Below are positions 40,848 to 46,302 of a DNA stretch of 64,000 nucleotides, piece after piece; the stretch's first letter is position 1; each line of letters begins with the position of its first letter. The stretch lies in contig NC_006047.2 of the NCBI RefSeq assembly GCF_000006445.2, positions 930,001 through 994,000 on the forward strand. The letters are read 5' to 3'. A program made the position numbers and the translations under genes. Origin of the DNA: Debaryomyces hansenii CBS767. Lineage: Eukaryota > Ascomycota > Pichiomycetes > Serinales > Debaryomycetaceae. The notes beneath the pieces were generated by a model. It saw only the letters and a list, made by a program, of their open reading frames with translations. It was not told where the DNA came from and ran no database searches.

Positions 40848-40887
40848 CATTCCTAATTAGTTCTCTGGAATGAACTAATTAGGAATG
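40848..40887. repeat. 16-bp perfect inverted repeat, 8-nt spacer, containing two CTAATTAG cores
   Basis: Left arm CATTCCTAATTAGTTC (40848-40863) and right arm GAACTAATTAGGAATG (40872-40887) are exact reverse complements, with 8 nt between. Each arm contains a CCTAATTAGT-type core, itself nearly palindromic. Confidence 0.9.
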
Positions 40888-41030
40888 TACAATAGAAACT
40901 TAATTTAGGGAGAGAAGCAATACGAAAGCCTAAATCATGTTCTTATTATAGACAGTCATCATCGCTAGTGTATAGTATCCAGAACCAAATTTCATGTGCA
41001 CCGGTAGATCTTCCCCACCCCCCTTTCAGG

Positions 41031-41040
41031 CCTAATTAGT
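41031..41040. promoter_or_regulatory. Candidate Mcm1/MADS-box half-perfect site (CCTAATTAGT)
   Basis: CCTAATTAGT differs from the perfect palindrome by one base and lies in the same upstream cluster. Confidence 0.4.
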
Positions 41041-41481
41041 CTTCGCATTACCTTTAGGAGCATCATAGTCGTAAATATTTTCATTATATACAGGTAATTA
41101 CAGTCTATTTAGGCTTCCAGTAAATGAGGAGCTTTACTTTCACATGACCCTTCATTTCAATATCAGCTGGAATGTTAAGTACAAAAAACGACTCCTTCGA
41201 AATGAAATTCTAAGATCGACAAACCATCCTAATATGGGAGAATACCCCACAATATCAGAAAGTGCAAGAGTATGTATCCTTTCATAGACTTCATCAAAAG
41301 GACTTGATCAATATGATGCTCATCTGTATATTTCAAATATTTATAGCAGTCTGTTTGCCTAGACAGCTACTACATTCTTTTTAGCTGTATCCTACAAGCA
41401 ATTCACAAATTGCACTTCATCGCCTTACTTCATCGCTACACTAGCGAGAATGCCTTGAGCTCGCATTAATGTGTCCCCTCT

Positions 41482-41491
41482 CCTAATTAGG
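41482..41491. promoter_or_regulatory. Candidate Mcm1/MADS-box site (CCTAATTAGG)
   Basis: CCTAATTAGG is a perfect CArG-type palindrome and matches the CCxAATTxGG core of yeast Mcm1 P-boxes. It is about 810 bp upstream of the ATG at 42304. Confidence 0.5.
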
Positions 41492-41543
41492 CCGCACTGT
41501 ATTTATTCTACTGCAGGTGTTGTACAGTATTGTAATTAGCATG

Positions 41544-41553
41544 CCTAATTAGG
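41544..41553. promoter_or_regulatory. Candidate Mcm1/MADS-box site (CCTAATTAGG)
   Basis: A second perfect CCTAATTAGG, 62 bp from the previous one, within the 12-bp palindrome GCCTAATTAGGC. Confidence 0.5.
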
Positions 41554-42303: not shown

Positions 42304-43710
42304 ATGGAAAATAAAAAGTAAGTATAGCATAGTCATTGAATTACGCAGCGTATAATGATGTTGGCGCCAATCACAAATATAAAGATACTAACTATTGATA
42401 GTACCATAATAGAACATCCTCCTAATGGACAAAAAAGATGGAGAATAACGTCTAGAAAATCAAACTCACTGACCATAGGATCAAAGAATTCAAAAATCCC
42501 AAAATCGCAAAGGGTGATCCAGTGTTTACAGAATTCGTTACAAATCGCTGCCGCGGGGCAGCAATATCAAGGAAAAATGCCGCCATCAAAGAGGCCTAAA
42601 AATAAGCCTGGAATGCCGAAAGATTTTATATTTGTGGATTTATCCCCGGTCAAAAATGCTGAGGACTCATCGGACGAGGGCGACAATAGCAGTTTAGTCT
42701 CACCAACTATTACTCCTGATACTACTGCTTTGGATAAACAAGAATTGATTACTGTTTCACCGGTTACTACACCAGACACTACTATTGATAAACACGAATC
42801 GAATACTGTTTCACCTAGTATTGCACCAGATTCTACTGCTTTGGATAAACAAAAACTGACTGCTGATTCATATTTCGAGTTATCTGCCTCTAATGACTCC
42901 TTTCAATCTCTGCAATCCGATGAAGAATCAATTTTCTCATTGGGGGATTCGTCGGTCTTGTCCAAATCCTCCACTTTTGGAACCGAATCTTATATACAGG
43001 ACTATAACCAAATTAATTCCCAATCGAGTGCAAGCAATGATGCCATGCTTGGATTGGGTATTCTTAACATGGATATGTCATCTAATGCGGGTCATTGGAT
43101 AGCAGAGAGCGGTGATATGTATTACCAAGAAAGCTTCAATTATGAACCATCAGTTGCTTATAACTCGCATATTAATCCATTTCCTGTTATTGAACAATCG
43201 AAAATTGAGCCTCAATTCGAGGGCTTGAAAAGATCCAGCACAGTCCCCGAGTTGCCTACACAGGTTCAGCAACCCACTTCTCACAGAAGAGCAAAGTCAA
43301 CATGCGAACCTTCGAAAAAGAGATCCAGCTCTACTTTGCAGTTCAGAGTTTACAAAGCTCCTTCTAGTAAAGGAAAGAAAAGCCTGACTCCTGAATTGAA
43401 CCATAGACGCACAATTTCTGAACCATCATTTGCCGTTCCAAGAAATTCCAATGCCTTTGACTTCATGGATTTTGACAATCAAATGTTTGTGGATTTGAAT
43501 GGTGACGATTCTCCTGGCAACTGTAATTCAGTGATGTCAGAATCTAATATTTTTACTCCTAGCACAGAATACTCCGAAAGTGAGGATTATACCAGTGGTT
43601 TATTAAAGTCTTCGAATATGGACACTTTTTCACTTGGGGGTTGTGGCTCAAATGAATTCTTAGGAAGTAACCAATTTGATTTTGATTTTAATTCTTATGT
43701 TTCTTATTAA
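42304..43710 (+). CDS. Unidentified low-complexity, possibly regulatory protein; two exons (42304-42317, 42402-43710)
   Basis: Joining exon 1 (14 nt) to exon 2 gives a 440-residue protein beginning MENKNTIIEHPPNGQKRWRI. The intron joins in frame. Without splicing the nearest start is ATG 42355. I do not recognise a family. A basic segment (SRKSNSLTIGSKNSKIPKSQ, then SKRPKNKPGMPKDFIFVDLS) looks like the conserved part; then follow three 18-19-residue repeats of type SPxxxPDTTALDKQ (42700-42867), Ser/Asn-rich acidic text, and HRRAKS/HRRTIS sites that could be kinase targets. A nuclear regulator is plausible, given the basic block, acidic tails and large upstream region, but this is inference. 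An SFG1-like factor was considered without real support. Confidence 0.65.
42318..42401 (+). other. Spliceosomal intron (84 nt)
   Basis: 5' splice site GTAAGT at 42318, perfect branch-point box TACTAAC at 42386-42392, and 3' TAG ending at 42401, 10 nt after the branch A. Using this AG keeps the reading frame; the next AG (42411-42412) does not. The exon 1 frame hits TAA directly inside the intron. Confidence 0.75.
42700..42867 (+). repeat. Three degenerate 54-57-bp tandem repeats in the coding sequence
   Basis: Units 42700-42756, 42757-42810 and 42811-42867 each encode SP-x3-PD-[TS]T-(AL/I)-DK-(Q/H)-x5. Unit 2 lacks one codon. The first and third are most alike. Confidence 0.85.
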
Positions 43711-45108
43711 GAGTATCGAAATCACGATTTGGAGGTTAAGGATTTTGGGATTTTTTAACAGTATTTTAATTTCGTTTTACGACAACCATTACATTTCGTG
43801 CCAATTAGATTGGCTTGCATTATACCTTCTTGACTTTGAATTTGTCTGGAAGGAATTCGTACCATTATTTTGGTTTTCAATATTTCGTGCCATTAGATTG
43901 GCTTTCTATGTTTTCGTGCCAGAATTGGCTTCCATTTATTCGTGCCATTAAATTGGTTCTCATTAATTTTCGTGCTATTAAATTGGGTTCTTACATATTC
44001 GTGTCATTAATTTGACTTACTTTGATACTACATTCGTGCCGTCAAATCGGTTTTGCATTACATTCGTGCCAGTAATTTGGCTTGCATTTTTTTTCGTGCC
44101 GTTAAATCGGTTCTGCATTTATTTCGTGCCATTAATTTGGTTTCCTAACATTTATTATCATGAATTCTTTTTCATAGAATCCTTCATATTTTTCCTACAT
44201 TTTTGATTGAACCTAAACCTAAGTGGTTCTAAAGCGAGTTTTTTCATATTTCATGTGAATTATTTTGACTTCATATTCGTTCCATTGTTAGGCAATTCAA
44301 TGGTGCATTTGTTTAATATACCCCCTTATCCTTTTATTAGTTCGGTTAGCCACAATCATAAGATCAGTTTCATCTAATCTTTTTGATATGCGACAATTGT
44401 TATTTATTATTTGTACATTATCTTTATTTTATACCTAGTTACTTACTAAATTATTATTATATTTCATTAAGATTAAACTAAAAGTTTAGTTTCTGTGTAA
44501 CTATATACATCCCCTCTCAGTATAAAACTAACTTGAATATTGATTAGCGTAATGCATTGAACTACATTAGAACATGTTTCCCAATTAGGTTCCGTTTGTT
44601 TGGGCAACTATAAACTTGGAAGATACAACAGACTTCCATGCTTTAGCGACCAATGTGAATTAACTTTTAAAAAGAAACACAATATTCAAGAAATTGCCTC
44701 AACTGGTACGGCATTAAGGTGGATTTAACATAGTATTTAATCAATTTTATTACACTAAAGGGTAATGCCGAAATTTTTACAAACCCTTAAAAGGGTATCT
44801 CTTTGTGATCAATGATAAAAATTGGTAAATCTTTTCATAAATATCTGAGCGAGACAATTCATACTTTACAGATATAAGCACATATTTGTTATCGTGGCAC
44901 ATTTTTGAATGACAGGGCTTCGCGATCTAGTATTAACCATTGGTTTTAATTTCTCGAGTTCATTATACTGACGATATCTTGTGACTTGAAACGGATTTCG
45001 TTAATACTGCTTAAATTAAACGCGTGGAAAAATAGTAACTTGATTTAGTAAATCTATAGTTTCCAGTAAGATAATATTGCACAATTCATGATTAGGATAA
45101 TATACATG
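43711..45108. other. Convergent 3' intergenic region with hairpin array
   Basis: 1.4 kb between two convergent genes. The first 430 bp holds the eleven-unit TTCGT-hairpin array; the remainder is AT-rich with one Mcm1-like CCCAATTAGG at 44580-44589. Overlapping + strand frames through the array (43676-44206) change frame between units and are not treated as genes. Confidence 0.6.
43795..44141 (+). repeat. Array of eleven TTCGT + 4-bp-stem hairpin units, about 30-nt period
   Basis: Hairpins start at 43800, 43861, 43889, 43918, 43944, 43974, 44003, 44038, 44068, 44098 and 44128. Each is preceded by (T)TCGT and has the form GCCA-N4-7-TGGC (usually N6). Stems vary in a paired way: ACCA/TGGT (unit 2), GTCA/TGAC (unit 7), GCCG/CGGT (units 8, 10), and G-U pairs in units 5, 8, 10 and 11. 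Only unit 6 (GCTA/TGGG) loses its terminal pair. The array starts 85 bp after the stop codon of the + strand gene, so it probably lies in that 3' UTR. Confidence 0.85.
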
Positions 45109-46302
45109 TTATAATAAATCATGGAATGGTTTAAGCGCAGATTTGTTCGATATTGAAGAATTTGAATCTTGAGATAGCGTATTTATAACTTCTAATATCA
45201 ACTGCTTATTTAAATCATTCTGTTCCTTTTGAAATTTATTATTTGATTCAATTATTTTATTGCACCTCTCATTTTGCTCCTTTATAAATTTTATATTGTC
45301 TTCTATAATTCTAGTATTTTCCTTTTGTTGCTGAATTTGAAACTCAGTATATTCATTAAGTAGCTTTTCTAATGACTCATATAGATTTTGCTGGGAGTAG
45401 GAAGAGCTACTATCGCTCATGATCTTTCGAATATTATTATAAGTATTATTAACATTCAGAACTAAACTGTTGGATTTTGAAGATAAACGTGTAGATGAGG
45501 TAGCAAATTGTGCGTTATTTGATGTAGAATTGGTAGTGGGTATATTCGCAGAAACATCGGAAGTTTCAATTGGTGATGTAATTGATTTATTCAAATCAAA
45601 TGATTGTAGGATACTAGCATTAGGTAATTCAATAGCAACAGGCGTATTTGTCCCTTTTCCAGTTTTCAACTTTTCACTGAGGTCGTTTAATTCTAGTAAT
45701 GCTAGTTCTAAATCATTCAAGGAACTTTCTTTGTTAATCGTACTTAATATGAAGTATGAAGAGTCCAAATTTTTATTTTCTTTATTACTTTTATTATTCT
45801 GTCGCCTCAGCTTAGCCTTTTTGATAGCTGTAGCTAACTGCCGTTGCAAAGTCCTTACTGTGGGCACAATCACTTCTGGATATCCGTCAGAATTTTTGCG
45901 TTTAATCTCCGCAAACTTTGTTTGAATTATTTCCCATTTCTTTGTTTGACTAAGTGATCTATCACCAACATATTTGAATGGCTTGATATTAATAGTTAAG
46001 TATAAGATTAGCCTCACATCTTGACTTGTTAATTTGGTGCGATGGTTATTTTTGAATATTATAGAATTTGAATCACCGTTGGATTCATAATCATTCACTG
46101 TGGTTTGATTAGAACTTGATTCATCCATGCTTGTATTCGATATTGAGATATCGCTATTACTTTTGTGGGCATTGCTTAGACCATTAACATTATTACCATT
46201 AAAGCTATTGCTATTATTTTGCATATTAGACTTTAATGGATCAATCAACTGCCGAACTTGACTATACCCATGATTAACAGTTTCCTCTCTATCCATAGAC
46301 AT
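45109..46302 (-). CDS. Unidentified protein: putative DNA-binding helical domain plus C-terminal coiled coil
   Basis: This 397-residue protein is not recognised. Residues 1-85 are Asn/Ser rich. Residues 88-170 form a compact charged domain (KLTSQDVRLILYLTINIKPF, QTKKWEIIQTKFAEIKRK, TVRTLQRQLATAIKKAKLRR), whose W and three-helix spacing recall Myb/SANT or trihelix-type DNA-binding domains. A Ser/Thr-rich linker follows, and residues 300-385 are a long coiled coil (LYESLEKLLNEYTEFQIQQQ, IEDNIKFIKEQNERCNKIIE). This is the layout of a dimeric DNA-binding protein, as inference. Start ATG 46300-46302; 209 bp separate it from the NAM7 stop. Confidence 0.6.
   Translation of the reverse strand: MSMDREETVNHGYSQVRQLIDPLKSNMQNNSNSFNGNNVNGLSNAHKSNSDISISNTSMDESSSNQTTVNDYESNGDSNSIIFKNNHRTKLTSQDVRLILYLTINIKPFKYVGDRSLSQTKKWEIIQTKFAEIKRKNSDGYPEVIVPTVRTLQRQLATAIKKAKLRRQNNKSNKENKNLDSSYFILSTINKESSLNDLELALLELNDLSEKLKTGKGTNTPVAIELPNASILQSFDLNKSITSPIETSDVSANIPTTNSTSNNAQFATSSTRLSSKSNSLVLNVNNTYNNIRKIMSDSSSSYSQQNLYESLEKLLNEYTEFQIQQQKENTRIIEDNIKFIKEQNERCNKIIESNNKFQKEQNDLNKQLILEVINTLSQDSNSSISNKSALKPFHDLL

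Follow-up and report, generated by a model that had tools for sequence, protein, structure and literature searches.

Downstream of an unnamed gene of Debaryomyces hansenii lies an array of eleven short units, each made of TTCGT, a 4-bp stem and an AT loop, in which stem letters change in pairs, units are conserved beyond their spacers, and no second copy was returned by the genome searches that we ran. The array is genuine and probably under selection, and probably the only one of its kind in the genome as searched. Our tentative reading, to which we give slightly less than an even chance, is that it would be a cis-acting RNA element in a 3' UTR, with many sites for a protein. The window, i.e., the whole stretch analysed, comprises 64 kb (positions 930001-994000 of contig C5, which has 2,007,515 nt) of a genome of 12,181,948 bases in 8 contigs.

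The array and its host gene

All eleven units lie on the + strand of 43795-44141 (Table 1), and re-reading their coordinates and spacings put them where the earlier note had placed them. The five letters TTCGT are identical in 11/11 units of the alignment, again as claimed. Successive units are 61, 28, 29, 26, 30, 29, 35, 30, 30 and 30 nt apart. The spacings of 26-35 nt keep no reading frame and every frame over 43856-44142 contains at least three stops, ruling out a coding repeat. Loop lengths are 7, 6 and 4 nt, with the stem retained throughout.

The gap of 61 nt that separates unit 1 from unit 2 amounts to two periods, and near its midpoint there is an in-register TTCTT, giving spacings of 32 and 29. 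The hairpin at this position is the strongest in the array, with z-scores of -4.1 on the + strand and -3.9 on the - strand for a stretch that was chosen after its folding was seen (500 shuffles each, 1 and 0 of which were as good); with six more bases of 5' flank, z is -3.5 and 3/500 shuffles are as good. We read it as a unit in which the letters changed and the hairpin was kept. A candidate beyond the array, at 44276, is doubtful as a further unit. Locally it folds no better than chance (z -0.2), and some TTCGT with a 6-bp hairpin was contained in 43/2000 background shuffles of the surrounding non-array sequence. Elsewhere in the window, with the array excluded, the same scan lists 14 more TTCGT hairpins, and one of them (15330, minus strand) equals it in score.

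Table 1. Host gene, array units and additional positions (feature, window coordinates, strand, description)
Host gene, unnamed CTG-clade protein, 440 aa after splicing	42304..43710	+	homologues, spliced model
Unit 1	43795..43814	+	TTCGT + GCCAAT/ATTGGC hairpin, 6 bp, 3-nt loop
Degenerate in-register position between units 1 and 2	43825..43853	+	TTCTT at 43827 inside hairpin CCTTCT.GAC/GTC.GGAAGG
Unit 2	43856..43874	+	ACCA/TGGT
Unit 3	43884..43902	+	GCCA/TGGC
Unit 4	43913..43929	+	GCCA/TGGC, 4-nt loop
Unit 5	43939..43957	+	GCCA/TGGT
Unit 6	43969..43987	+	GCTA/TGGG; broken outer pair; weakest hairpin
Unit 7	43998..44016	+	GTCA/TGAC
Unit 8	44033..44051	+	GCCG/CGGT
Unit 9	44063..44081	+	GCCA/TGGC, one extra G.T pair
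Unit 10	44093..44111	+	GCCG/CGGT
Unit 11	44123..44141	+	GCCA/TGGT
Doubtful outlying unit	44276..44303	+	TTCGT T CCATTG/CAATGG, 6 bp, 10-nt loop, then TGCAT

The array begins 84 nt past the stop codon of the host gene, in agreement with the claim that it lies just downstream of an unnamed gene, and 967 nt separate its own end from that of a convergent gene on the - strand. This neighbour, which ends at 45109, has no Pfam match, and a UPF1 homologue comes next. Reading gap lengths from the ORF list, so that they depend on which ORFs count as genes, the gap that holds the array is, at 1,398 nt, the longest of six convergent gaps (491, 127, 1134, 1398, 4 and 72 nt). Judged by this arrangement, the position of the array fits the 3' UTR of the + strand gene.

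The host ORF as called, from 42355, begins inside a predicted intron at 42318-42401, with GTAAGT at 42318, TACTAAC at 42386 and TGATAG ending at 42401. Predicted splicing yields an open 440-aa frame starting MENKNTIIEHPPNGQKRWR, the N-terminus of which resembles those of several relatives (P0014, P0015), and the true start is thus probably at 42304. Gene models of the nearest relatives likewise begin in the presumed intron. Protein searches, first with the window ORF (24 proteins, including its own), then with 23 of these aligned (70 proteins) and then with 34 of the 70 aligned, found relatives across the CTG clade and matched only unnamed or uncharacterised proteins. Orthologues in close relatives (P0003-P0008) have 61-89% identity. 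Ten columns around FxFVDLxP are invariant in the 34 aligned. At E 0.1, Pfam gives no match for the host protein, and weak, scattered Pfam families match 1 or 2 of these 34 relatives. For P0002, no relative was found among viral contigs or genome contigs. We suspect kinship of the host protein with S. cerevisiae MSA1/MSA2. Within the host coding region, 42697-42870 is an imperfect direct repeat of 54-57 nt, the extent of which varies among the aligned relatives. Upstream of the host gene, CCTAATTAG occurs five times within 40852-41553, both strands counted, and nowhere else in the window; two of the five are full CCTAATTAGG, which we take to be the palindromic Mcm1 site.

Covariation of the stems and conservation of the units

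Standard pairs fill 43/44 stem cells of the eleven-unit alignment, and double changes occur in 4 cells, at 3/4 stem pairs. The paired changes named in the earlier note are all present: A-U in unit 2, U-A in unit 7, and G-C in units 8 and 10. When the 3' letters were shuffled, in a control that ignores kinship between units and so does not give a probability, paired cells stood at 91.0% against the observed 97.7% (reached by 0/500 shuffles), double-change cells at 0.9 against 4 (0/500 had as many) and pairs with a double change at 0.9 against 3 (6/500). There was no excess of further pair types (5 vs 4.8 in the shuffles, 336/500 of which had as many). Sliding the 3' partner by 1-3 columns lowered pairing to 9-50%. 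Among the 253 possible 4-bp antiparallel helices of the 32-column hand alignment, the array stem is paired in the largest fraction of cells; next comes the same stem shifted inward by one (81.8% paired), and six helices that are paired in <46% of cells hold 5-9 double-change cells, more than the array stem does. The pair counts against shuffles and the comparison of helices together bear out the covarying stems. The earlier note had also suggested a covariance model of the units. With default filters, such a model recovered 6/11 units in the window at E < 0.001 but missed the other five, and this insensitive model found nothing else in the window below E 0.6.

Between units, identity is 90% for TTCGT with the 5' arm, 71% for the 3' arm and 76% for the nine six-base loops, i.e., the loop is partly conserved. 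It is 30% for the 8 nt preceding the unit and 41% for nucleotides 3-8 following the hairpin, a contrast that is partly built in, since the units were recognised by their conservation. Nine spacers, aligned freely and leaving out the long one after unit 1, reach 67% identity against 62% (sd 9) for shuffled spacers. In an unconstrained tandem repeat, decay would affect units as much as spacers. Because the spacers are near background while TTCGT and the 5' arm stay 90% identical, it is probably selection, and not recent duplication, that holds the units, as far as can be judged from these letters. What is selected would be the hairpin, since the stems covary, units and spacers differ in conservation, loop length varies and even the in-register position between units 1 and 2 still folds.

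A 60-nt duplication, the youngest that is visible in the array, relates units 8-9 to units 10-11, and 44033-44083 differs from 44093-44143 at 7 positions in 51 nt, of which 4 are in spacer, 2 in loop and 1 in stem. This duplication, and the presence of other TTCGT tandem repeats in the genome, would suit a nonfunctional minisatellite, in which a chance hairpin was duplicated in tandem and itself promoted slippage. We regard that as very improbable, as neutral decay would strike units and spacers equally, whereas the spacers are near background with unit parts at 71-90% identity, and the paired changes exceed those in shuffles. The two TTCGT repeats that were examined also differ from the array, one being a 5.3-copy repeat of coding type and the other an exact one of 2.5 copies. 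The former (C5:1387801-1389800) has a 30-nt period, a 90% match and TTCGTGCC inside a 255-codon open frame, and the latter (C1:587701-589700) has a period of 38 nt and contains TTCGT.

Folded RNA or double-stranded DNA

The earlier note took the array for a + strand RNA on the grounds of wobble asymmetry. Six cells are not Watson-Crick pairs. Five of these are G.U on the + strand, at the outer pair of units 5, 8, 10 and 11 and, as U.G, at one pair of unit 6, as claimed; the sixth is a broken G.G at the outer pair of unit 6, which that note had omitted. The + strand is indeed favoured, with 98% of stem cells paired against 86% when the - strand is read, but the argument is weaker than that note made it. 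Since units 8 and 10 share ancestry, the five wobble cells go back to only ~2-4 independent changes, and by our own rough reckoning the asymmetry has p of roughly 0.06-0.25.

Whole-array fold energy is unexceptional, with z of -1.46 on the + strand (11/100 shuffles as good) and 0.25 on the - strand, and sliding 60-nt windows with starts at 43802-44102 range from z -2.3 to +0.5 on +. Stem occupancy is predicted to average 0.63 on + and 0.55 on -, and most of the stems also form on the minus strand. Individual hairpins are of low stability (-0.3 to -6.1 kcal/mol on +), with unit 6 barely forming; marginal alone, they would need a protein to matter. Beyond the array, the minus strand of 44342-44401 folds unusually well (z -4.5 against 100 shuffles, as one of 46 sliding windows on two strands).

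We favour an array that acts as RNA, from the + strand, because loop length varies with the stems kept, the conserved flank is one-sided and the wobbles are G.U on +. A serious if somewhat unlikely alternative is that the units are double-stranded DNA sites, set in one orientation at intervals of about three helical turns and recognised by a protein specific for TTCGTGCC..GG. The reader could be, for example, a transcription factor, or a polar replication or transcription barrier between convergent genes like RTS1 of fission yeast, which is a polar barrier with repeated motifs. A palindromic DNA site would likewise yield stem conservation; the sequence is CCG-N6-CGG in units 8 and 10 and CCA-N6-TGG in most of the others. 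The spacing of ~30 bp, the convergent intergenic place, the small number of single wobble changes and the equal strength of the 43825 hairpin on both strands would all suit DNA sites. Against them, the half-sites vary in spacing with the loops, a variation that sites for dimers seldom allow, only one side has the TTCGT flank, and single copies are hardly enriched elsewhere in the genome (7 vs 4 for a control pattern).

In the RNA reading, the array would be a cis-acting element in the 3' UTR of gene 42304-43710. Each unit would display a single-stranded UUCGU beside a small AU-looped hairpin, and eleven or twelve such sites in a row would let a putative sequence-and-structure-specific RNA-binding protein bind one mRNA repeatedly; the repeated binding may set the translation, decay or cellular place of the mRNA. 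Transcription across the array, its strand, the protein binding and its effect are what we infer here. This reading draws on the covariation, the contrast between units and spacers, the varying loop length with stems kept, the folding of the in-register position, the shared orientation, the frame-breaking spacing and the place 84 nt past the stop, and also on the sole stem difference in the youngest duplication, a change from G-C to G.U. It is weakened by the weak hairpins, the unremarkable folding of the array and the ability of the minus strand to form most of the stems, as well as by the partly conserved loop and the choosing of units by their conservation. A further weakness is the TACATA word at 43992, within the array, which we take to resemble an efficiency element; the mRNA could end inside the array.

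A bolder version, and a rather unlikely one, is that of a private multivalent RNA platform, in which a dozen covarying UUCGU-hairpins in one mRNA would serve a dedicated reader of undescribed specificity. The reader would perhaps be the host gene's own product or a feedback partner, with control by site number. If it is RNA, the array would be a natural bait for a new RNA-binding specificity, and a Pfam-less CTG-clade gene with an FxFVDLxP core would gain a handle on its regulation.

Distribution in the genome and comparison with known systems

The earlier note had named a match to a known satellite or transposon end as evidence that would speak against it. With 43711-44330 as the query, a search of the 12.18-Mb genome that skips very common words found the region itself and nothing else at E up to 10, and with no second copy a transposon end or dispersed repeat is ruled out. 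With three mismatches allowed, an 18-base unit matched the genome 22 times, 9 times in the array and 13 times outside it, against 9 for a control pattern. For TTCGTGCCRN{3,7}YGGY there were 15, 8 of them in the array and 7 elsewhere (control 4), and a looser unit with GCATT added left 1 elsewhere vs 1 for the control. Three TTCGT at similar spacing occur 37 times, 8 in the array; the 29 elsewhere, some of which are tandem repeats, compare with 73 for the control pattern, which speaks against sister arrays. We also looked for arrays of different sequence in 254 kb (the window plus 190 kb). TRF reported 6 rows there with a period of 15-80 and at least 3 copies, three describing the array or its parts and three being other repeats, open in some frame. 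Of the six, the row for 43856-44142 alone is closed by stops in all frames; the two shorter rows within it are open in some frame. The searches as run thus give no hint that such sites form a class spread over the genome. Unit patterns also occur in 2 viral and 11 prokaryote stretches, with one full match each and no further TTCGT within 200 nt in 11/13 of them (two more in L032, one in L033), and these are taken as chance.

No RNA family in Rfam matches the array. At the gathering score, Rfam 15 matched nothing but a tRNA in the whole window, and over 43600-45200 at E up to 5 it gave one weak nuoG match at 44535-44622 and none in the array. Alternatively, the hairpins could be carried by a noncoding RNA of their own, or by an extended transcript that covers the 1,398-nt gap on one strand or the other, and act in trans or as a decoy. 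The gap's rank as the longest of six and the hairpins that form on both strands would accommodate such an RNA; the lack of any Rfam match in the array and the same-strand gene end 84 nt upstream speak against it. Nor is there an evident target, the 13 outside-array matches of the 18-base unit, on either strand, all having three mismatches, against 9 for the control. We consider this quite improbable. A check for RNA interference found no Piwi match in the genome, and the only control genome with a match was that of an archaeon.

Several known systems can be compared with the array. To our knowledge, no long array of small covarying hairpins is known in a yeast mRNA, and among the matches listed for open-licence PMC literature we found no comparable array. 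The roX1 and roX2 RNAs are long noncoding animal RNAs with longer stems, in which they differ from the array. In Drosophila, these RNAs likewise have several tandem hairpins in one RNA, forming a multivalent platform, according to the part of PMC10926079 that cites them. A language-model screen that includes D. hansenii (PMC12513839) was confined, for fungi, to the kilobase upstream of start codons, and it probably did not cover the array site.

The ASH1 zipcodes, which are read by She2, comprise multiple hairpins within or close to the 3' end of a single yeast mRNA, but are not known to form a tandem array, unlike the units here. The She2 family had no match in the genome, nor in any control genome. 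Hairpins bound by Vts1/Smaug carry CNGG in the loop, a motif found in 0/11 array loops. Swi4/Swi6 cell-cycle boxes form arrays in, e.g., the HO promoter, and TTCGTG is the complement of CACGAA. However, TTTCGTG (CACGAAA) is present in only 6/11 units, unit 2 changes the core along with its stem partner, and the array is not upstream of a gene but between convergent ones, so that a Swi4 cell-cycle box array is rejected.

The targets of Whi3 in yeast are linked to UGCAU, and PMC3875557, which reports this, found no structural feature beside UGCAU and states that it does not show direct binding. They likewise carry short sites in mRNA, and the array region does have TGCAT words; however, it is a hairpin and TTCGT that the array conserves, and TGCAT occurs in only 4/11 spacers. 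There are five TGCAT words on the + strand of 43711-44330 against 0.77 expected (5/5000 mononucleotide shuffles reach five), but three of them are within the duplicated block of units 8-10. Counting either strand, 43711-44330 is the densest 620-nt stretch for TGCAT in the window.
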